Shown here piece by piece: positions 15,982-25,456 of a stretch of 64,000 bases of DNA. Source of the DNA: Roseobacter sp. MED193 (GTDB taxonomy: Bacteria > Pseudomonadota > Alphaproteobacteria > Rhodobacterales > Rhodobacteraceae); NCBI RefSeq assembly GCF_000152965.1, contig NZ_AANB01000005.1, forward strand, positions 62,001 through 126,000. Reading direction: 5' to 3'. The notes below the pieces were generated by a model. The model ran no database searches. It was given only the letters and a program-made list of their open reading frames with translations, and had not been told where the DNA came from. Both the position numbers and the translations under genes were made by a program. The stretch's first letter is position 1; every line of letters begins with the position of its first letter.

Positions 15982-16857
15982 ATGTTTGAAGGCATTTTAG
16001 AGTTTGCAACCGTGGCGGAGTGCGGCAGCTTCACCAAGGCCGCGCAAAGGCTGCGTGTCTCTACCTCTCATGTGTCTCGACAGGTCAGCGCGTTAGAAGA
16101 TCGGCTTGGGGTGAAACTTCTCAACCGCACCACACGGGTGGTGCAGCTCAGCGACATCGGCCAGCGCTATCACCAACAGGTGCAACGGGTAATCGAAGGG
16201 CTGCAGGAGGCCAACCAGACGGCCATCAGCACCCACGCTGATTTGGCCGGTCCCATTCGCATGTCAGGGGCTGGGCCATTTGTCGAAGAGCAGGTGGCGC
16301 CTTTACTGGTGCAATTCGCGGCGCAACACCCAAAAATCACGCTGGAAATGGATTTTGAAACCCGGCTGGTGGATCTTGTCGATCAGGGCTTTGACTTTGC
16401 CATTCGATACGGGGTTTTGGCAGAAAGTGGCATGATCGCCCGCAAGCTGTCCAGCCGCCCCTTGGTCTGCGCTGCGTCCCCCGCCTACCTGGACCGGCAC
16501 CCAGCACCACACCATCCCCGCACGTTGCGCGACCATTCCTGCCTGGTGATCAACAATGATCTTTGGCGCTTCAGTGACCCTGACCAGAAAACGAACATCG
16601 AACTCCGCGTGTCCGGGCGGGTACGCGCCAACAGTATCGTCGCAGCGCGTGAAGCAGCTGTCCAAGGGCTGGGCGTGATCTATACGCCCGCCAGCAATGT
16701 TGTGTCTCAGATTCAGGCGGGCACGCTCGTGGAGATCTTGCCTGAATTCGTCGACACCACGCGATCTCATTGGCTTGTCTATCCAGAGCGTCAACACATG
16801 CCAACACGCGTGCGCGCCGCAATAGACCACCTGATAGCTGGGCTGGACAACAAGTGA
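15982..16857 (+). CDS. LysR-family transcriptional regulator
   Basis: 291 residues. The N-terminal winged helix is typical (FATVAECGSFTKAAQRL then VSTSHVSRQVSALEDRLGVK and LLNRTTRVVQLSD). The C-terminal effector domain (about 90-290) is of the CrgA/AaeR-like subgroup, with GPIRMSGAGPFVEEQVAPLL and FDFAIRYG. It is divergent from the PfpI gene and ends with a clear intrinsic terminator. It most likely controls its neighbour and itself; the inducer is unknown. Confidence 0.88.
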   Translation: MFEGILEFATVAECGSFTKAAQRLRVSTSHVSRQVSALEDRLGVKLLNRTTRVVQLSDIGQRYHQQVQRVIEGLQEANQTAISTHADLAGPIRMSGAGPFVEEQVAPLLVQFAAQHPKITLEMDFETRLVDLVDQGFDFAIRYGVLAESGMIARKLSSRPLVCAASPAYLDRHPAPHHPRTLRDHSCLVINNDLWRFSDPDQKTNIELRVSGRVRANSIVAAREAAVQGLGVIYTPASNVVSQIQAGTLVEILPEFVDTTRSHWLVYPERQHMPTRVRAAIDHLIAGLDNK

Positions 16858-17101: not shown

Positions 17102-18271
17102 ATGAATGCAAAACCATCCGTGTTAATCACCGGAGCACGCGCACCCGTCGCGCTGCATCTGGCAAGGTTGCTTAACGACGCAGGGCATGGCGTGTCCTTG
17201 CTGGATCACGTGAAGCATCCTCTCGCCGCGGCCAGCCAAATGAATATCCCCTATTACCGGATACCGCCATTTAGCACAGAGCCAGAGGCGGCAGGTGACG
17301 CCCTGCATGATATCATAGAAGAAAGAGGCATCACCCTCGTCATTCCAACCTGTGAAGAGGTCTTGCATCTAGGCGCACTTTGGCAACGCAGACCCCCCAA
17401 TGCTCGGCTTTTTGCGCCAAAACTGGCGAAGCTCTCTCAGGTCCACAACAAATACCATTTCATCCGTCTGTGTGAGGGCTTGGGCCTGCCAACACCACAA
17501 ACCCAGCTGGTCACGACACAGCGAGAGCTCGCCCTTCATGTGCAAAACGCCCAGAACCTGGTGTTCAAACCGGTCTGGTCCCGGTTTGGATCTCAGGTTC
17601 TCATCAAGCCAAAAGCACCAAAACTCCAGCGGCTTCGCCCCACGGCTCAAAATCCCTGGGTTGCACAGGAATATGTTGATGGAACGGAACTCTGTATCTA
17701 CGCCATTGCCCGCGCTGGCCATCTGGTGGCGCTGAGCGCTTATCGCGGTCTGGTCCGTGCGGGAGTGGGCGCAGCGGTCTGTTTTACCCCAGAGGAAACT
17801 GCACCACTGCGCGCCTTTGTTGAACGGATCGTTTCAGCAACAAACTGGACCGGACAGATATCCTTTGACGTCGTACAGACAGCGCACGGGCGGCTCTTGC
17901 CCTTGGAATGCAACCCACGCGCCACCAGCGGTTTACATTTCTTCTCAAAAGGGACCGCGTTCTGCGAGGCCCTTTTTGGGGAAAACCACGAGGTCGAACC
18001 TGATGTAACAGCGCCCCTAACGCTGCCCCTTGCTCTTTGGCTTTATGGATTGCCAATGATGCTGAACCCTGATCAAAGGCCGGTATTCTTAAACGCCTTG
18101 CGCAGCGCAGGGGATGTCATGCGCTGGCCCTCAGACAGGGTCGGATATGGGGCGCAGCTAAGCGCCTTGGCAGAATTCGCGGGCATCGCCCTGCGTCATA
18201 AGATCAGCCTCGAGCGCGCCTCTACCTGGGGCATTGAATGGAATGGTGCGGAACAAAGCGTCCTTTCGTAA
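17102..18271 (+). CDS. ATP-grasp domain protein (carboxylate-amine ligase-like)
   Basis: The 389-residue protein has a nucleotide-binding-fold N-terminal part (VLITGARAPVALHLARLL), a middle ATP-grasp domain (LVFKPVWSRFGSQVLIKP, then WVAQEYVDGTELCIYAIA) and the metal-binding end LLPLECNPRATSGLHFF. ATP-grasp ligases join a carboxylate to an amine or other nucleophile through an acyl-phosphate. It stands alone on the plus strand and converges, 17 bases apart, on a five-gene minus-strand operon of biosynthetic enzymes. A joint pathway is inferred from that adjacency. An AT-rich region (ACTCAGTATAATTCAATAC) upstream at about 17042-17060 looks like its promoter. Confidence 0.8.
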   Translation: MNAKPSVLITGARAPVALHLARLLNDAGHGVSLLDHVKHPLAAASQMNIPYYRIPPFSTEPEAAGDALHDIIEERGITLVIPTCEEVLHLGALWQRRPPNARLFAPKLAKLSQVHNKYHFIRLCEGLGLPTPQTQLVTTQRELALHVQNAQNLVFKPVWSRFGSQVLIKPKAPKLQRLRPTAQNPWVAQEYVDGTELCIYAIARAGHLVALSAYRGLVRAGVGAAVCFTPEETAPLRAFVERIVSATNWTGQISFDVVQTAHGRLLPLECNPRATSGLHFFSKGTAFCEALFGENHEVEPDVTAPLTLPLALWLYGLPMMLNPDQRPVFLNALRSAGDVMRWPSDRVGYGAQLSALAEFAGIALRHKISLERASTWGIEWNGAEQSVLS

Positions 18272-18288
18272 TGCGGCAACCGCCTTGG

Positions 18289-19383
18289 TTACAGCTCGAA
18301 CCTTTTCAAAAGGGGCACCCCAACACGCGACAGGACCGATCCAATTATGCCTGTCGCGATGCGACGCCTGCGCGACAAATGACGGGTATAGACGGCACTA
18401 TATTCGATCGCAGGAATCGCGCCTCTGTTGCGTTTAAAGCCCGCCGCCCCCGCACTCATGTTAAACAGAAGCCCCTCCGCCAGTGCATCGCGCTTCGCCA
18501 TCGCCGTGATCATACGGTACAGCCCCTCTTTTTGTGGGCGCCTGGTATCATAGCCCACCAACGGCTGCGTCAGCGTGCGCCCATATTGAAACCGCCCCCC
18601 AATAGCGACGAGCTGCCCGTCAGCATCGCGCAGTCCTTTCAATCTCAAAATGCCCGACTGATGCGCCATCTCGAGAAAGGCAGGCGTATACTGCGGGTTA
18701 AGAGGGGTGTATTTTTCAAGATAGAGCTGTTCATAGAGCCCTATGCAGGCTGGATAGTCGGCCTGGGTAAAGCCTTCATTGTCGACCTCCTCAAAGGGTG
18801 TTTTACGCAGCAAGGCCAGATCCTTTTCCATATCCGGGTTCAGGCCCATGGGCGCTGTTGCGTCAAAGAGATAAATCTGGCGGGATGGCAACAACTGGAA
18901 TCCCTCCTGCACCAATGCGGTCAGCGCGCTTTGGTCAGAGTAGGTATTCAGGGAACGCAAAAGGATGGCATGGCCTGGAAACTGCGCCGCCAGTTGATCA
19001 CGCAGGGCTGCCGCCATGTCTCGTGTAACAACCGGGGCAGGGTTGGTGGAAAACAGCCAATTATTCACATGCACCGCACGGTCCAGGCCACTAGCGCGTA
19101 CGACAACAGCCGCCGCTCTTATCATGGTGATCAGGGATTTGCGCAACAACGGGTTGGGCGCAAAATTACGGGTCTCTTCCAAGGCATAATCGATATAGCC
19201 AGTAACTGGATTGCAGATGTAGCAATTGCCCGGCAGACCCCCGTCATTGACCGTGATCGGAAAGGCCTGCCCCCTCACATCCAGCCGCGCAACCCGTGTT
19301 TGCAGGTTGCGGATCAGCGCCTCACTCGGGTGGCGCGCGAAACACTCAACAAAAGCATCCAGAGGCTGTGATGGCTGCTCCAT
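18289..19383 (-). CDS. GNAT/FemAB-like acyltransferase, cluster gene 5
   Basis: About 364 residues, choosing the ATG at 19383 because it overlaps the upstream stop as TGATG; the longer frame starts at 19410. The C-terminal half has a GNAT-like pattern: GILRLKGLRDADGQLVAIGG, LTQPLVGYDTRRPQKEGLYR and FNMSAGAAGFKRNRG, as in the FemAB/acetyltransferase_6 group. It would transfer an acyl or aminoacyl group to an amine. It is last in the KASIII operon. No close functional relative can be named by eye. Confidence 0.7.
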   Translation of the reverse strand: MEQPSQPLDAFVECFARHPSEALIRNLQTRVARLDVRGQAFPITVNDGGLPGNCYICNPVTGYIDYALEETRNFAPNPLLRKSLITMIRAAAVVVRASGLDRAVHVNNWLFSTNPAPVVTRDMAAALRDQLAAQFPGHAILLRSLNTYSDQSALTALVQEGFQLLPSRQIYLFDATAPMGLNPDMEKDLALLRKTPFEEVDNEGFTQADYPACIGLYEQLYLEKYTPLNPQYTPAFLEMAHQSGILRLKGLRDADGQLVAIGGRFQYGRTLTQPLVGYDTRRPQKEGLYRMITAMAKRDALAEGLLFNMSAGAAGFKRNRGAIPAIEYSAVYTRHLSRRRRIATGIIGSVLSRVGVPLLKRFEL

Positions 19384-20648
19384 CACGGCTTTACCGATTG
19401 GGCGCGACATTCGACACGCCTCAGTTTTCGGCTCACATCCAAGGGCAGTGGGCCATAGGTCAACGCGATTTTTGCATGCAGACCGCGCGCGTCAAACAAG
19501 GACTGCAGCCCATGTCTAGCCGCCAGCCCTGCGCCCGGTGGCAGGTCTGCGGGCAACGCAAGTTCCACAGTCCGCGGTCCGGTCTGAATGACACGAAAAT
19601 CGGAAATTCTGTGATCCGCCATGACCACCGCATTGCGCAGCACATCAGGGGTCAGCATTTGCAGCCCCCTTGCCCCATGCAAATGAAAACAATCATCCAT
19701 CCGCCCAACGATCTCCGTCACGGCTTGCAAGGGCGTGCCACAGGAACAGGGCTCGGGGTCCAGCCGCAACAAATCATTCATCCGATAACGGGCGAGGATC
19801 TGTGTCCCACGACGAAATGAAGAGATCAGCGGCGTGACCAAGCCATCGCCCACTGGCTCAAATTCAAAATGCACAGAGTCCTCGGCCAGATGCAGCCGCC
19901 CGTGGCGGCAGGTAGTGCCCAACAATCCTTCGGTCGCCATGTAGATCTGTCCAAGTCCGCGCCCGAATGCTGCCTCGATGACAGGGCGATCAAGAGGGTC
20001 AAGCGTTTCAGCGGCAGAGAACACCCGCAAGGGACGCAGGCTGAACTTCTCTTCAGCCATGGCCCGCAGCACTTTGGGCGCGGCGACAATAACCGTAGGA
20101 TCAAAAGCTTCCAGCTCTGCGCGCCAAGCATCCGGTCCTCGGGTCACATCAAAAAACCGCAACTGGAGCCGCTGGATTTGGTTGGCACTGTCATAGAGCC
20201 CCGTGCCCCGCGGCAATAGGATGGCCACACGCTGTTTGTGCCACAACAGATCCGCCATCGTTTTGGCAAGGATGCTGCCCAACCAGCGAAATCGCTCAGC
20301 ATCAGAGATAACAAATAGTCCCTGATTGCCACTTGTTCCGGTGCTGGCCCCGACGGTCAGTGCACCTATCTGATCCCCGCTCTTCAGCGCCCCACGTACC
20401 TGATCAGCTGAAATGCCTTGGCTATTGTACTGCGCAAAATTTGCCATCAGCTGCGCCTTATCCATTACTGGCAAGATCGACAAATGGGGGGGAGCATCTA
20501 CGAAGGCAGGCACCTTTGGGACGGCACGGTGCAACCATTTGCCCAGAGCCCGTTCTTGGTGCTGCAAAAAACGGGCACGGGTCAGCCCAGGGCGCGATAG
20601 ATATCGGGTAGAGAGAAAACTAATAGGCGCATTTAGCCGGGCGATCAC
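19383..20648 (-). CDS. F390-synthetase/PaaK-like adenylate-forming enzyme, cluster gene 4
   Basis: The 421-residue protein matches the family of putative adenylate-forming enzymes related to coenzyme F390 synthetase and PaaK. It has LTVGASTGTSGNQGLFVIS as the nucleotide-binding loop, FSAAETLDPLDR, QIYMATEGLLGTTC and RMNDLLRLDPEPCSCGTPL, with a probable zinc-type CxC site. The enzyme should activate a carboxylate as an acyl-adenylate. The GTG start overlaps the MBL gene stop (GTGA) and its own stop overlaps the GNAT start, so it is tightly coupled. The family occurs in small metabolite clusters and its substrate is unknown here. Confidence 0.8.
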   Translation of the reverse strand: MIARLNAPISFLSTRYLSRPGLTRARFLQHQERALGKWLHRAVPKVPAFVDAPPHLSILPVMDKAQLMANFAQYNSQGISADQVRGALKSGDQIGALTVGASTGTSGNQGLFVISDAERFRWLGSILAKTMADLLWHKQRVAILLPRGTGLYDSANQIQRLQLRFFDVTRGPDAWRAELEAFDPTVIVAAPKVLRAMAEEKFSLRPLRVFSAAETLDPLDRPVIEAAFGRGLGQIYMATEGLLGTTCRHGRLHLAEDSVHFEFEPVGDGLVTPLISSFRRGTQILARYRMNDLLRLDPEPCSCGTPLQAVTEIVGRMDDCFHLHGARGLQMLTPDVLRNAVVMADHRISDFRVIQTGPRTVELALPADLPPGAGLAARHGLQSLFDARGLHAKIALTYGPLPLDVSRKLRRVECRAQSVKP

Positions 20649-21469
20649 AGCTCAGCCCCCTGTGCAAAATCAAACTGCGATGGCGCGGTATCGTGGCACA
20701 AGAGAACTTCGCCTCCGGCCTTTTGGAAGGCAGAAACCTGTTCACTGCTGCGCACGACCTCGGAAAAACTGTCAGAAATCAGGCGCGGGAAGAGGCGCGG
20801 CCTCCCGCCCGGCAATAGTGCTTCACCAACCCATTGCGTATCTGTGGCATAGAGAAATGGCACCTCAAGCTGGCCAAACAACAGCCCGAAATGCCCATGT
20901 GCATGACCGGGCAGAGGCACCGCCAAGACACTGCCATCCCCAAAAATATCATGCCCATCCGGTAAATGGGCGATCTTTTGGCTGGCGCATTTCTCGACCA
21001 CCTCAAGCCGAGTTCCGAAATCACCAGGAATAAGCTCGGCAAAGACCCCATGCCGCAGGTTTTGCAAGGCGCTATTACCTTGCACCTGCGCCCAGGCTGC
21101 ACCGCTGGCAATAAAGCGGGCGTTTGGGAAAGCCGCAAGGCCAGAGACATGATCAGCGTGAAAATGCGTGACGATCACCCGCGAGATATCAACAGCGGTC
21201 AGCCCAAACTGTGTCAGGAACGGTCCAGCCTGTTCTTGAACAACTAGGCGAGGTGCCAATATGCCAGCATAGCTGCGCAACGCCAATGTGCGCGACGAAG
21301 TGTTGAGACTATGGCTGGTATAGCCGGTATCAATCAGTGTTGGTCCTGCTTTGGGGTGGATAAACAGACCATAACGCACCTGAAGCCACCGCCGCCGCCA
21401 ACGCCCATTGCGCAGGATCAACCGCTCTGGGGCCGCGACCCAGGCACTATTGGCAAAAACCGGCCTCAC
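20645..21469 (-). CDS. MBL-fold metallo-hydrolase, cluster gene 3
   Basis: This 274-residue metallo-beta-lactamase-fold enzyme has the two-metal motif VIVTHFHADHVSG, then VPLPGHAHGHFGLL and FLYATDTQWV, with a final His in LLCHDTA. Members hydrolyse lactones, thioesters or esters. It starts with GTG overlapping the epimerase stop and ends overlapping the next start, so it belongs to the same transcript. In a KASIII/adenylate-forming pathway a thioesterase or lactonase step is plausible, but that is inference. Confidence 0.82.
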   Translation of the reverse strand: MRPVFANSAWVAAPERLILRNGRWRRRWLQVRYGLFIHPKAGPTLIDTGYTSHSLNTSSRTLALRSYAGILAPRLVVQEQAGPFLTQFGLTAVDISRVIVTHFHADHVSGLAAFPNARFIASGAAWAQVQGNSALQNLRHGVFAELIPGDFGTRLEVVEKCASQKIAHLPDGHDIFGDGSVLAVPLPGHAHGHFGLLFGQLEVPFLYATDTQWVGEALLPGGRPRLFPRLISDSFSEVVRSSEQVSAFQKAGGEVLLCHDTAPSQFDFAQGAEL

Positions 21470-22440
21470 CCCGCCTCCCCTTGATCAAACACACGGTCCA
21501 GCCCCTCAGCAAAAGCGACCCGAGGCGCCCAGCCAAGACCATCTCGCGCACGCGAAATATCAAGGCTCTGCTGATAGGCAAATAGACCCAAACTATAGCG
21601 AGACACCACCGGTTCGCGTGGGTCACGGCGCATCAGTGCCAGGGTTTCGGCCACACGGGCGGCAAACAATGTCGGCGCAAGCGGCATATCCCGCCAGCGC
21701 GGCACAATGCCCGCCCGCTCGCAGACACTTTCGACAATCTCACTGATCGGAAGCACTTCGCCGCCCGAGATATTGAAGGCCCGCCCTTCCTGGAGCTGCT
21801 TGGCACTGATCGCGCTCATAACCGCGTCTACAACATCATCGATATAGGTCAGGTCAATCCGCGCCTGCCCTTGGCGAAAACGCGGCAAGGCGCGTGTCGT
21901 TGTGGCTTTGAGCAATCGTGGCAAGAGGGCGCTGTCTCCGCGGCCATATATGCCGCGTGGGCGTAGGATGATCGGCCCCACCTCTGGTGCCGCTCTCACC
22001 AGCTGCTCTGCGGCAATCTTGCTTTGAGCATAGGGGGTGAAAGCAGGCGGCAAAGGCATATCCTCGGGCACATCCAGCTGATCGCTGAGGGCAAAATAGA
22101 TCGATGGGCTGGAGATAAAGACAAATCGCTTAACCCCCTGCAGCCGCGCGAAATTCAGGACTGACGCTGTGCCAAGTACGTTTGCCGCATGAAAGGCCTC
22201 GGCGCGGCCAAAGGGGGACGAGAGCCCGGCACAATGCACAATCGTATCCACCTGTGCCAACTGCGGGCTTTGGGGGGCCGCACCGGGCAGGGTCCAATTA
22301 ACGACATTGATCCCTGCGGCATCCAATGCCGCACAGTGAGAAGGGTTGCGCCCCTGTCCGACGCCATTGTCCCCAAGCCGACGCAGCACCGCGCCGCCCA
22401 GAAAACCGGTGGCGCCAGTCACAAGAACGCGTGCGGCCAT
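21466..22440 (-). CDS. NAD-dependent epimerase/dehydratase-family protein, cluster gene 2
   Basis: The 324-residue protein is an extended short-chain dehydrogenase: VLVTGATGFLGGAVLRRL for NAD(P) binding, FVFISSPSIYFAL for the catalytic Ser region, and the YxxxK pair in PYAQSKIAAEQLV. It is similar in layout to 3-beta-hydroxysteroid or dihydroflavonol-type reductases and to sugar epimerases. It starts two bases after the KASIII stop. A reductase acting on a beta-keto product of the KASIII enzyme would fit, but the substrate is not visible in the sequence. Confidence 0.83.
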   Translation of the reverse strand: MAARVLVTGATGFLGGAVLRRLGDNGVGQGRNPSHCAALDAAGINVVNWTLPGAAPQSPQLAQVDTIVHCAGLSSPFGRAEAFHAANVLGTASVLNFARLQGVKRFVFISSPSIYFALSDQLDVPEDMPLPPAFTPYAQSKIAAEQLVRAAPEVGPIILRPRGIYGRGDSALLPRLLKATTTRALPRFRQGQARIDLTYIDDVVDAVMSAISAKQLQEGRAFNISGGEVLPISEIVESVCERAGIVPRWRDMPLAPTLFAARVAETLALMRRDPREPVVSRYSLGLFAYQQSLDISRARDGLGWAPRVAFAEGLDRVFDQGEAG

Positions 22441-22441
22441 C

Positions 22442-23428
22442 TCAGGTCACCACCGCCGCGCCGCCCAGACTCACCCCGGCAGAGGTGCCTAAAAACAGGA
22501 CTTTGCTCCCGGCAGGCACACGGCCTTGCTCGCGTGCGATATCAAATGCAAAGGGGATCGAGGCGGCAATCTGATTGCCGTAGTCCTCTACGATGCGGAC
22601 CACCTTTTCGCGCGGCCAGCCTGTTTGGCGGATCATGTGATCAAGAGCGCCGGGGCTGGCCTGATGCGGCACGATAAGATCCACATCACTGTGATCCCAC
22701 CCCGCTTCGCGCAAGAGCGCATCAACAAAACCGTTGAAATGCTGGGTCGTGAGCCGGAAAAGCGCTTTGCCGTCCATGTTGAATTTGGAATGCTCAGCAA
22801 AGGCCTCACGATCGATGTTGAAATCAAAACGCGTGCCCCCCGCCCCAATCCCGCAGGCCTCATACGCAGACGGATAGCTGCGCAGCCTTATTGCTTTGAT
22901 TGCGGCAGCACTCCCTGATGAAGCGGCGCCAATCACGGCAGCGCCAGCGCCATCCCCAAAAAATGCGGCAGTTTCAGGCTGCGTGCTCCACGGGAGCGCT
23001 CGGGAGGCGATTTCTGACGAGACAACCAATGCAGTTTTTGCGGCCCCGCCACAAATCATGCGGGCGGCCATGTCCAGACCCGTCACAAAACTCAGGCAGG
23101 TGCTGTTGACGTCAAACGCTGCCGCAGATCCGTCCTCCATCCCGAGGCCGCGCATGATCAACGGAGCCATCGCTGGAATGGGTTGATAGGCGACGGAGGC
23201 CCCTGAGATTATCAAGTCGATCTCACCAATCTTGCACCCCGCATTTTCCAATGCGCGCTGACAGGCCAATACGGCAAGATCAATCTGGCTCTCATCCGTG
23301 CAGTGGTGGCGCCTGCGGACGCCACTCGCCGCAATACGCCCCCCTGCGGACCATTTGATGTCAAGGTCAGTGCTCTGCGCGCAATGAAGCGGCAAAGCCC
23401 GTCCTGTGCCAAGAATAAAAGTGTTCAA
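22442..23428 (-). CDS. 3-oxoacyl-ACP synthase III (FabH-like), cluster gene 1
   Basis: About 328 residues of the thiolase fold. The three catalytic residues are seen in order: Cys in DVNSTCLSFVTG, His in LIVPHQASPGAL and Asn in EDYGNQIAASIPFAF. KASIII-type enzymes condense an acyl-CoA with malonyl-ACP, or join two acyl units in head-to-head or ester-forming variants. Sequence differs enough from FabH that a pathway-specific role is likely, and no fab genes are adjacent. The start is uncertain: a TTG at 23428 has GGAG four bases upstream and gives the family-like start LNTFILGTGRALP; a TTG at 23446 is also possible. It heads the operon. Confidence 0.8.
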   Translation of the reverse strand: MNTFILGTGRALPLHCAQSTDLDIKWSAGGRIAASGVRRRHHCTDESQIDLAVLACQRALENAGCKIGEIDLIISGASVAYQPIPAMAPLIMRGLGMEDGSAAAFDVNSTCLSFVTGLDMAARMICGGAAKTALVVSSEIASRALPWSTQPETAAFFGDGAGAAVIGAASSGSAAAIKAIRLRSYPSAYEACGIGAGGTRFDFNIDREAFAEHSKFNMDGKALFRLTTQHFNGFVDALLREAGWDHSDVDLIVPHQASPGALDHMIRQTGWPREKVVRIVEDYGNQIAASIPFAFDIAREQGRVPAGSKVLFLGTSAGVSLGGAAVVT

Positions 23429-23840
23429 AGGAACTCCATTAGCCAATCGCTTTCAGGAACATATGGGACCACCCCTTGTTTTGAAATGCTGGAATCCCGC
23501 CATTGAAAACAACATGACAAATGCCACACAGGGGCTAAAGCGTGGCAGGCTGCCCCCTACGAGTGCGCCCCCTTCATTGGCCTTTGCCACTGGTCGGCAC
23601 TTTTGACCGGGGCCCAGATTGGGTTGCCGCATCTGCGCACGTCGCTGCAAAGTGTTTTCAACCCTGTCGTGGTTATCTCTCTTTTCTTCTTATCACCGGT
23701 AATCCGGAGTTCTGACGCATTTAGCGCGCCGCCCCAGGGCTGGAGCCGCACCTATGAAACACGCGCCACAAGCGTCGAGACCCTGAACCCATACGGCTCT
23801 TAGTTGGGCCGGATAATCCACCTGAGTATGAGGTCGTACC
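23429..23840. other. Divergent intergenic region between the KASIII cluster and ghsA
   Basis: About 410 bases without a supported gene. It must contain the leftward promoter of the biosynthetic operon and the rightward promoter of ghsA. A pyrimidine-rich AT stretch (TTATCTCTCTTTTCTTCTTA) lies around 23670-23690. I saw no clear terminator, RNA gene or palindromic operator. Confidence 0.4.
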
Positions 23841-24104
23841 ATGCCCCCGAATGATCCTTTTTCCGCCATGAGCCGCAGCTTGACCAGCCCCGCAACAGAG
23901 CATTTCGCTATTGTGCCGACGGATGGTGTCGATCTTCCGACACGCCCCCGGGTGCTACGGGTTGTGTCCTCAGGCGATATCTCCATGCGAGACGCGAAAG
24001 GTGTGGTGATCACCTATTCCGTCTCTGCCGGGGAGACTTTGCAATTCTCCGCTATCGGCATCGAAGCGACAGGGACTACGGCAACCGTAGTCGGGTGGCT
24101 CTGA
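23841..24104 (+). CDS. ghsA: Gene transfer agent head spike base protein (Rcc01079 family)
   Basis: The 87-residue protein follows the spike-base family pattern: DPFSAMSRSLTSPATEH, then LPTRPRVLRVVSSGDISMRD, GVVITYSVSAGETLQF and a C-terminal EATGTTATVVGWL. In Rhodobacter capsulatus the matching pair rcc01079/rcc01080 (ghsA/ghsB) lies outside the main GTA cluster and makes spikes on the GTA head that help binding to recipient cells. GAGGT sits seven bases upstream of the ATG. The downstream gene overlaps its stop (TGATG). No other phage or GTA structural genes are in the window. Confidence 0.8.
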   Translation: MPPNDPFSAMSRSLTSPATEHFAIVPTDGVDLPTRPRVLRVVSSGDISMRDAKGVVITYSVSAGETLQFSAIGIEATGTTATVVGWL

Positions 24105-25456
24105 TGCCTGGTCTTGGCTTGGGACTGGGGGTGCGTGGCATGCAACCCGCCCTCCTGGCGCGCTACAGTCTCGGCGGCAAGGCCCCTGCTGTGATCGCGG
24201 ATACAGTGGCAGGGGTCTATGGCGTTGGCGGGCGGTCTGTGGGTTTTGACGGCCTGTTCACCTTCTCGCGGCTCTCTGCCGCTTGGAAGTTGAATGCCCT
24301 GGGGCATTGGGTCAAGGTGCTGGCCGGCGAGCCGCGCACCGGGCACCACGTCTGGAGGGATGGCAAACTGGCACCTGCTGGCATTGCTGTCTGCTCAGAG
24401 GTGCGGACGAACCTGGCAAGCTACAGCGACGACCTGCGCAGCTGGTCACTCGACAACAATATCACCGTAACACCGCAGGGCACTCTTGGTGGAAGCCCCT
24501 CATTTGCCCTATCCGATCAGACAGACACCTTTGGGCAGATAAGCCAGAACATTGGGGCCATCGGAGATGGTGAATTTTGCTGTCAGGTGAAGGTTGCTAA
24601 GTCTAGGACCAAGGTAAATGCTTTTGGTATTCGCGCCACCTATTCCGCTGGAGGCGTTACCCAGTTTAATGGTATTTCGTTCAACGCTGAAACAGGCGGT
24701 GGAATTATTGGCATGTGGGGGTCTACAATCATTGAGCGAAAGGTTCAGGACTGTGGCGATTATTGGCTTGCTTGGTTCTCTTTTGATGCCACTGGGATAG
24801 GGCTCAACGAAGCAAAAATTCAGGTGTTTCCAGCACATAATGGGGTGAACGGCAATGGTGGACCTCATTGGACGGGGGACCACCGATGCACGGCCATTCA
24901 GGTGAATGCGGGCCGCTGTCCAAAGAACTATATCAAGACCGAAACCGCTCCGGTTTCTACCGCCTCTGAGAGCTTGCAGATCAACCCATCTCTGCTGTCC
25001 TCCGCCTTTGGCGGGGTCATGCCCGAGGCACTGACCTTCGTAATGAAGGGAACCATGAGCTACGCAGACGTAGGGCTTAACCCCCAGGTTCGCATGCTGC
25101 TCTGGCAGGCAGATAGCATCGACCGAATCCGGCTCCAGCTCAATACGGTCGATGCGCGCACCGGGCAATTCATCGCCTTCACCCAAAAGGACGGTGTCGC
25201 CAATTCGGCGCTTTCTGCACCCGATGCATATTCGCCGGGGGTGGAAGTTCCCTTCTCAGTTGCCGCTGTCCTGACCGCAACCGATATTGAAGGCTTTTAC
25301 AATGGGGTCTCCACTGGAAAAGTGGCGCATGGTGGCCTGCCGAGCCTCATGGCTGCACCTATGGAGTTCTTTTCTCCAGGAACGGGCACAATCACTGAGT
25401 TTTGCCTCTGGCCCGAGGCGCTGACCAGCTCCACCCTTCTGGAGGCTACGGCCTGA
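24104..25456 (+). CDS. ghsB: Gene transfer agent head spike fiber-like protein (Rcc01080 type)
   Basis: About 450 residues, starting at the ATG that overlaps the ghsA stop. The Gly-rich start (PGLGLGLGVRG), the YSDDLRSWSLDNN-type carbohydrate-binding stretch, and the C-terminal lectin/glucanase-like part (FVMKGTMSY, FYNGVSTGKVAHGG, EFCLWPEALT) resemble phage spike or fiber proteins that present binding modules. The role is attachment of GTA particles to the capsule of recipient cells, by analogy with R. capsulatus. The middle (about 24,560-24,850) is visibly richer in A+T than the ends, suggesting exchange of a receptor-binding module. Confidence 0.7.
   Translation: MPGLGLGLGVRGMQPALLARYSLGGKAPAVIADTVAGVYGVGGRSVGFDGLFTFSRLSAAWKLNALGHWVKVLAGEPRTGHHVWRDGKLAPAGIAVCSEVRTNLASYSDDLRSWSLDNNITVTPQGTLGGSPSFALSDQTDTFGQISQNIGAIGDGEFCCQVKVAKSRTKVNAFGIRATYSAGGVTQFNGISFNAETGGGIIGMWGSTIIERKVQDCGDYWLAWFSFDATGIGLNEAKIQVFPAHNGVNGNGGPHWTGDHRCTAIQVNAGRCPKNYIKTETAPVSTASESLQINPSLLSSAFGGVMPEALTFVMKGTMSYADVGLNPQVRMLLWQADSIDRIRLQLNTVDARTGQFIAFTQKDGVANSALSAPDAYSPGVEVPFSVAAVLTATDIEGFYNGVSTGKVAHGGLPSLMAAPMEFFSPGTGTITEFCLWPEALTSSTLLEATA

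Follow-up and report, generated by a model that had tools for sequence, protein, structure and literature searches.

In the OleABCD and oleACD-lipstatin systems, a thiolase-fold condensing enzyme, an extended short-chain dehydrogenase/reductase (SDR) of the OleD type, an adenylate-forming enzyme and a hydrolase are encoded in one cluster, and PqsA-PqsD-PqsE bring together an adenylating ligase, a beta-ketoacyl-acyl carrier protein synthase III (KASIII) enzyme and a hydrolase of the metallo-beta-lactamase (MBL) fold. According to excerpts of the literature (PMC5724707), the polyketide synthase (PKS)/nonribosomal peptide synthetase (NRPS) assembly lines of myxopyronin and corallopyronin end with the stand-alone condensing enzymes MxnB and CorB, respectively, which make alpha-pyrones from two beta-keto chains. 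Here, we describe a six-gene cluster in a 64,000-nucleotide stretch of Roseobacter sp. MED193 (contig NZ_AANB01000005.1, positions 62,001 to 126,000; hereafter the window), which encodes a KASIII-type condensing enzyme (KAS), an extended SDR, an MBL-fold hydrolase, an adenylating enzyme of the 'F390 synthetase-related' family TIGR02304 (F390), a GNAT-fold transferase and an ATP-grasp ligase. With a probability of roughly 0.45, the six genes are one version of a patchy, conserved cassette, whose product would be an amphiphilic molecule containing a beta-hydroxy acyl part, either an acyl-amino-acid or an aminolipid.

Conserved linkage of a four-gene core

GTDB contigs were scanned with the F390 protein alone, yielding 38 loci whose neighbouring genes were identified by codon-score gene calls plus BLAST of open reading frames (ORFs). 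KAS, SDR, MBL and F390 stood in that order on one strand in 36 of the 38 loci, and the two misses (L036, L071) were contigs starting inside F390. Because loci fetched via F390 alone keep the core order to this extent, the linkage of the cluster genes is far beyond chance. The organisms include Mesorhizobium, Stappia, Roseibium, Ruegeria, Yoonia, Shinella, Asticcacaulis and Kiloniella. The core was also present in 18 of 20 further genome regions, counting one with its SDR in two ORFs (L088); four of the 20 (L085, L093, L096, L097) apparently repeat contigs of the 38-locus set and are not independent. Junctions between core genes had a median of -4 bases and 142/196 were at or below zero, in a count that retained near-duplicates and took starts from codon scores. 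With eight near-duplicate loci removed, core protein distance matrices correlated at r 0.88-0.92 and those of GNAT and ATP-grasp at 0.94, none of 2000 permutations being as high, although shared organism ancestry confounds and inflates these values.

An earlier interpretation of the same DNA (the sequence-only reading) had proposed a six-gene biosynthetic unit and suggested conserved order and co-occurrence across genomes as the check. The homologues are not scattered, and recurrence in distant Rhodobacteraceae, which it named as support, was found and extends far beyond the family. The conserved biosynthetic unit therefore stands, and the fixed set of six gives way to the four-gene core with exchangeable modules. 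F390 relatives without a surrounding core do exist (L094, L111, L119), as does one distant GNAT alone (L120); nevertheless, the probability that unrelated genes adjoin here by chance, or that the annotation is an artefact, is negligible, both being refuted by the order kept in 36/38 loci and by the linkage seen from independent GNAT and ATP-grasp anchors.

The condensing enzyme

The KAS gene, the first of the core (22442-23428, minus strand), starts at 23428 with TTG, preceded by GGAG, where an ATG had previously been read; an alternative in-frame TTG lies at 23446. Its best model was PRK07204 (NF005541) with 269 bits, under the cut-off of 402, followed by FabH-type models, and a Paenibacillus homologue passed NF005541 with 424.9 bits. 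Against the FabH model TIGR00747, the window KAS reached 176.4 bits, below the cut-off of 292.1. The genome contains three KASIII-type genes, namely that of the window, a PRK07515-type gene (603 bits) and the true FabH (L001; 408.4 bits with TIGR00747, 434 bits with PRK09352), which is adjoined by a plsX gene truncated where the locus ends (207 bits, cut-off 243.4). Since this separate FabH stands beside plsX elsewhere in the genome, identity of the window KAS with the housekeeping FabH, an objection that the sequence-only reading had raised against itself, is ruled out.

Cys111, His255 and Asn285, previously described as an intact triad, were invariant in 60/60 KAS sequences. Residue counts here and below cover all called sequences passing the length filter, with the window included and near-duplicates kept; the invariance of the cluster enzymes was repeated in smaller hand-picked alignments. 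Long KAS calls in L060, L067, L087 and L100 were read as open frames extending upstream and not taken as fusions.

Among solved structures, the KAS profile scored highest with MxnB (304 bits) and CorB (294 bits), with every FabH at or below 263 bits, and a separate comparison gave, for the KAS, 153 bits with CorB, 90 bits with the PQS enzyme 3h76 and 76 bits with OleA (3s21/3s23; 3S23 is named as OleA in an excerpt of PMC5724707). In the portions of PMC4578411 and PMC7064751 consulted, OleA and PpyS require an active-site glutamate (E117 in OleA, E105 in PpyS) and MxnB and CorB have a valine there (V94). In the register set via V94 of MxnB/CorB plus the KAS-profile alignment, the cluster enzymes have Ile (31) or Leu (29) at this position in 60/60 sequences, just before a conserved Pro. 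Since the essential glutamate is absent, the KAS is expected to be FabH- or MxnB-like, using a malonyl or beta-keto extender, and not OleA-like, so that OleA-type two-chain condensation is made unlikely. MxnB joins two long chains and two tunnels have been proposed for it (part of PMC5724707); as MxnB and CorB fall within the FabH clade (excerpt of PMC4578411), kinship with them alone does not show two-chain condensation.

Reductase, hydrolase and adenylating enzyme

The SDR, core gene 2 (21466-22440, minus strand), is nearest to OleD, a 2-alkyl-3-oxoalkanoate reductase; its score with the OleD model NF042422 was 165.8 bits, far below the cut-off of 580, and 2-alkyl-3-oxoalkanoate reductase models gave the best SDR match in the window, in L081 and in E. 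coli. The nearest solved relative is NSDHL, a sterol-4-carboxylate dehydrogenase. OleD-type reductases and NSDHL act on beta-keto or beta-hydroxy acids, which fits a role in reducing the condensed product once the MBL enzyme has acted. Ser110, Tyr137 and Lys141 were present in 65/65 sequences.

Core gene 3 (20645-21469, minus strand, GTG start) encodes a lactonase/thioesterase-like MBL-fold hydrolase of the Lactamase_B family, with quorum-quenching lactonases as its nearest models. Its HxHxDH motif (His102, His104, Asp106, His107) together with His189 and Asp210 occurred in 67/67 sequences.

F390, core gene 4 (19383-20648, minus strand, GTG start), is a PaaK-like adenylate-forming enzyme that passes TIGR02304 with 254.7 bits (cut-off 251.9) and reaches only 17.6 bits with PF00501 (cut-off 29.9). 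Ser102, Gly104, Glu240, Asp292, Arg316 and Lys408 were found in 68/68 sequences and Gly100 in 67/68 (L119 differs); we take these positions to be the ANL phosphate loop, Glu, Asp and C-terminal catalytic Lys. The F390 profile was nearest to phenylacetate-CoA ligase and AjiA1, and the nearest solved structure was PaaK 4r1l. With their catalytic residues invariant, the cluster enzymes look catalytically competent.

An OleD-like reductase beside a condenser, an adenylating enzyme and a hydrolase fills the four slots of an Ole/lipstatin-like beta-lactone pathway, in which two acyl chains would be condensed and reduced, the adenylating enzyme would close the ring and the MBL enzyme would replace OleB. 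A known oleA/oleC/oleD cluster also carries a glycosyltransferase and a P450 (according to an excerpt of PMC7064751). This pathway is nevertheless improbable, given the Ile or Leu at the OleA/PpyS glutamate position, the KAS score with OleA of half that with CorB, and the finding that no OleC model is among the five model matches of the window F390.

The GNAT and ATP-grasp pair

The last two genes are convergent, GNAT (18289-19383, minus strand, ATG at 19383 with a further ATG upstream at 19410) and ATP-grasp (17102-18271, plus strand) ending 17 bases apart (18272-18288). The GNAT scored 21.5 bits with Acetyltransf_6, marginally under the cut-off of 22. Its predicted structure (pLDDT 89.1) resembles aminoacyl-tRNA transferases, the best Foldseek folds being Sbb17, MprF-type aminoacyl-phosphatidylglycerol (PG) synthases and FemX, with E values of 1.9e-9 to about 1e-7. 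The ATP-grasp protein passed PF02655 (ATP-grasp_3; 31.8 bits, cut-off 23.2), and its best model was PRK06849 (NF005315) with 312 bits, below the cut-off of 406. No solved relative was detected for it by sequence at E 0.01; the folds nearest to its predicted structure (pLDDT 90.9) were a carbamoyl-phosphate-synthase-like protein, PurK, GAR synthetase and PylC. Lys156, Glu269, Asn271 and Arg273 were present in 39/39 ATP-grasp sequences.

The two genes travel together. ATP-grasp accompanies GNAT in 26 of the 27 GNAT loci of the 38-locus set, where no ATP-grasp occurs without GNAT and the one GNAT without ATP-grasp is in L053, which carries DUF3419. Beyond that set, ATP-grasp without GNAT was found in L087, L088, L089, L101, L103 and L111. 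At least three arrangements were seen: either gene of the pair can lie downstream with the other one convergent, or GNAT can be divergent upstream of KAS. The persistence of the pair through them argues for a joint function. In the core loci opened, every GNAT was partnered by ATP-grasp or DUF3419; as either partner could leave a free amine, this suggests that the GNAT acts on that amine.

Used as a query against plasmids, GNAT retrieved 12 records, ten with the match within 1.5 kb of an F390 match and two, from Deinococcus, beside ATP-grasp. ATP-grasp retrieved 13, of which ten lay within 2.4 kb of F390, two were the same Deinococcus plasmids, and the thirteenth was a Pseudomonas megaplasmid that also holds F390, but far from it. 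On the Deinococcus plasmids (L122 6766-9023, L123 6781-9029), the pair forms a unit of its own, its ATP-grasp gene being annotated as hypothetical, and the stretch viewed contains no core. The GNAT profile matched 2/289 genomes of the class, the window's own and G912 (29% identity, no core in the stretch viewed); a bacterial ceramide synthase (bCerS) was considered as a candidate identity of the GNAT through this profile search of class genomes. A distant GNAT (29%) outside any core (L120 8346-9464) has a flavin monooxygenase and an ABC protein as neighbours and lies near an ORF of 1920 aa.

Exchangeable finishing modules

Across the 38 loci, GNAT was found in 27, ATP-grasp in 26, a Rieske oxygenase in 18, DUF3419 in five and a sulfotransferase in three. 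The modules seen on the core comprise ATP-grasp plus GNAT (the window type), a BtaA-like DUF3419 transferase, a sulfotransferase, accompanied in one group by a TetR gene, a glycosyltransferase, and PAP2 with a lipid hydroxylase and desaturases. The last type, PAP2 with one or two desaturases and a fatty-acid hydroxylase that weakly matches OlsE, occurs in E. coli, Burkholderia and L081-L083 (one Pseudomonadota family), and the E. coli version has seven genes, i.e., the core, PAP2, a sterol-desaturase-family hydroxylase and a desaturase. L090 contains a UDP-glycosyltransferase-like gene, L063 a fatty-acid desaturase gene on the opposite strand, and L047 matches to DUF3419, Rieske, PAP2 and hydroxylase together (BLAST only). 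In Fusobacterium vincentii (L108 3234-10174), an SDR, an HpnI/GT21-like glycosyltransferase and a 215-aa protein precede SDR-MBL-F390-KAS, possibly a glycolipid version in which KAS has become the last gene. L070 lacks GNAT, ATP-grasp, DUF3419 and sulfotransferase on a contig that ends in F390. A separate, strong DUF3419 gene lies elsewhere in the window's genome (L126, C1:3008484-3009611; 340.8 bits), and two cluster DUF3419 proteins scored 163 and 146 bits.

Module labels were placed on an F390 tree of 60 rows, built by a quick method with seven near-duplicates dropped and rows outside the length filter (e.g., L045, L104) missing; L119 was unlabelled, and L119 and L094 form long branches. 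ATP-grasp without GNAT was pooled with ATP-grasp/GNAT, L053 counted as DUF3419 and L100, on BLAST alone, as glycosyltransferase. The labels require 10 changes without a 'none' class and 16 with it, and the starred branches alone force two changes for sulfotransferase and three for DUF3419. These 10-16 changes indicate that the modules are exchanged repeatedly on a constant core.

The window contains no Rieske oxygenase, and the genome elsewhere has only a partial match of 31%. In L035, the C-terminal part of the Rieske protein gives a VanA-type match (24.5 bits, cut-off 23.5), as would suit a PQS-like aromatic pathway, in which the PaaK-like ligase would activate an aromatic acid, KASIII extend it, the MBL enzyme serve as a PqsE-like thioesterase and the SDR reduce, with Rieske and other enzymes decorating the product. 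PqsA, PqsD and PqsE occupy the same functional slots as the cluster enzymes, and the nearest profiles of F390, phenylacetate-CoA ligase and AjiA1, point the same way. On the other hand, the KAS is far closer to CorB than to the PQS enzyme 3h76 (153 against 90 bits), the cluster is without a second KASIII-like gene and other branches carry lipid-type tailoring, so that the aromatic pathway is a poor candidate, if a slightly better one than the beta-lactone pathway.

Distribution among bacteria

Twelve of 295 genomes of the family matched TIGR02304 at E 1e-40 or better, and in 11 of these, among them the window's own, F390 is surrounded by all or most of the core; L100 has its SDR farther away on the opposite strand, and G007 (L094) is without the core. 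In the latter stretch, the F390 relative (L094 8334-9635) neighbours an MFS_2 transporter and a protein of 345 aa that matches no Pfam family, and KAS, SDR and MBL are absent. Within the genus, F390 was found in 2/12 genomes, the window's own included. A phylum sample gave 10/398 matches at E 1e-30, and all nine besides the window have the core (L088 again with SDR in two ORFs). In a class sample centred on G509, 3/321 matched at E 1e-40, with the core in G509 and G1104 and, in G1136 (L119), F390 alone on a 10.7-kb contig with one in-frame TGA. The core is also found in Beta- and Gammaproteobacteria, in Bacillota, with ATP-grasp inserted, and in Fusobacterium.

F390 matched 26 plasmid records, of which 12 were opened through that match. 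Nine of them have the core in order, interrupted at most by an ATP-grasp gene (Pontibacillus, Paenibacillus, Burkholderia, E. coli KE48, Ketogulonicigenium, Pseudomonas FeN3W, Paracoccus, Rhizobium BT03 and Paraburkholderia). The other three are Fusobacterium with KAS last, Pseudomonas Leaf58 with the genes dispersed among others, and pMPPla107 with F390 but no core in the stretch viewed. The Rhizobium NIBRBAC000502774 plasmid, opened via its GNAT match, contains the core with DUF3419 and GNAT.

The KE48 cluster DNA matched 672/5,426 complete E. coli genomes, a biased sample, 671 of them over at least 80% of its length, and 671/673 places were chromosomal. Records named O25b:H4-ST131 and UPEC 26-1 are among the E. 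coli matches listed (30 of 672). In E. coli clone D i2, the cluster lies between narI and a tRNA-Tyr pair beside purU (L105 5029-11910; L121 6001-12882). Given the core in this share of complete E. coli genomes, the chemistry may matter beyond environmental bacteria.

Proposed pathway and product

We infer the chemistry, the order of steps and the product of the cassette from enzyme families and genomic context. The KASIII enzyme would join an acyl thioester to a malonyl- or beta-keto-thioester in MxnB/CorB- or FabH-like fashion, the MBL enzyme would release the acid from its thioester, and the SDR would subsequently reduce this beta-keto acid, yielding a beta-hydroxy acid. A carboxylate, either that of the starter or that of the finished acid, may be activated by the adenylating enzyme. 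The ATP-grasp enzyme could then attach an amino acid or other amine, onto which the GNAT may transfer an acyl or aminoacyl group. The scheme of the sequence-only reading, in which a unit is made, reduced, activated and joined to an amine, fits these families, whereas its small signalling or protective compound is one option only, since some relatives carry finishing genes of a lipid type, for PAP2, a fatty-acid hydroxylase, desaturases, an HpnI/GT21-like glycosyltransferase or DUF3419, which make us lean towards a lipid-like product.

That option, a secreted metabolite of a short or medium beta-hydroxy acyl chain joined to an amino acid, resembling an acyl-homoserine-lactone or an N-acyl amino acid, is compatible with the enzyme set and would agree with the quorum-quenching lactonases nearest to the MBL enzyme. 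The patchy and partly plasmid-borne spread (2/12 in the genus, 12/295 in the family, 26 plasmid records) is usual for secondary metabolism, and TetR-type genes beside several versions (L091, L092, L106 and L109 by BLAST, Rhizobium BT03 by annotation) recall its regulation. Nevertheless, no transporter holds a constant place among the 38 loci, where neighbour clustering gave an ABC-ATPase group in 16 at varied places, taken as common unrelated genes, and the desaturases, fatty-acid hydroxylase, PAP2 and HpnI-like glycosyltransferase of some relatives suggest membrane-bound substrates. A secreted signal is thus rather unlikely, more credible than an aromatic or beta-lactone product.

Several observations besides the ancestry-inflated correlations weigh against an acyl-amino-acid or aminolipid. 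The TM values of the GNAT to aminoacyl-tRNA transferases are just 0.40-0.53, with ordinary GNATs also matching at about 0.3; its sequence profile detects none of these transferases, and an amphipathic C-terminal helix that would hint at the membrane is unsupported (median P 0.175, 34 sequences). PaaK relatives of known function often take aromatic acids. L060, L062 and L069 have the core without any finishing gene searched for, and the PAP2/desaturase and sulfotransferase-with-TetR types lie on branches other than the window's.

In a wider view, the core would make the backbone of an undescribed amphiphilic lipid class whose head group varies by lineage, from Roseobacters and rhizobia to Bacillota, Fusobacteria and about one eighth of complete E. 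coli genomes. The head groups could be an amino acid (ATP-grasp plus GNAT), 3-amino-3-carboxypropyl (DUF3419), a sulfate or a sugar, or the lipid could be hydroxylated and desaturated with PAP2. This wider view is doubtful as it stands.

Gene layout and genomic context

Re-reading of the sequence and its ORFs confirmed the positions given earlier for the six genes and all junctions, with GTGA at SDR/MBL and MBL/F390 and TGATG at F390/GNAT. The six-gene stretch has a GC content of 57.9%, against 57.2% for the whole window. The nearest relative locus is that of an uncultured Roseobacter (L034), whose F390 is 96% identical. A LysR-type gene (15982-16857, plus strand) lies on the strand of the ATP-grasp gene, 244 bases upstream of its start, and among the 38 loci it recurs in this place only in the near-identical L034; in L038, a different LysR gene adjoins KAS. 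The sequence-only reading had reported neither a carrier protein nor an adjacent regulator. The former holds, with no PP-binding (carrier protein) domain in the window and eight places in the whole genome, the nearest at C4:141973, about 16 kb past the window end; the latter is not strictly correct, given the LysR gene.

The window's contig (C4) has 262,888 bases, and extrachromosomal replicons are suggested by the contig sizes of the genome (4.12 Mb, 263, 167 and 123 kb). RepC is present on C2 and C3; on C4, neither RepC nor RPA replication genes were found. A protein at 24095-25456 of the window carries a phage/GTA head spike fibre domain (47 bits, cut-off 36).

Comparison with known systems

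No study of this cluster was found in the open-licence library searched, nor among the listed papers containing 'F390'. TIGR02304, NF005541 and NF005315 are the best models for three of the enzymes, and only the cut-off of TIGR02304 is passed by the window protein; as printed, the three NCBI models describe single enzymes and give no pathway, substrate or product. The core is kept from Roseobacteraceae to Enterobacteria and Bacillota with repeated module exchange, pointing to a compound class that many bacteria should use, and a cassette of four to six genes allows a concrete experimental test of its product.

Unlike OleABCD and oleACD-lipstatin, the cluster has a KAS without the OleA glutamate, an adenylating enzyme of the PaaK/TIGR02304 type, an MBL hydrolase and the extra ATP-grasp and GNAT; the fold of OleB differs from the MBL fold. 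MxnB and CorB are the closest solved relatives of the KAS and share its Cys-His-Asn triad and the lack of a glutamate base, but the cluster is without a PKS and an SDR follows its KAS. Relative to PqsA-PqsD-PqsE, the cluster has an SDR, no second KASIII-like gene and a KAS far from PqsD. MprF and other aminoacyl-PG synthases, FemX and Sbb17 provide the best fold matches of the GNAT, which differs in having neither a membrane domain nor a profile-level sequence match to them. The kind of system, acyl condensation initiated by KASIII and combined with ANL activation, is thus known from Ole and PQS, and what is new is the enzyme set and its swappable modules.

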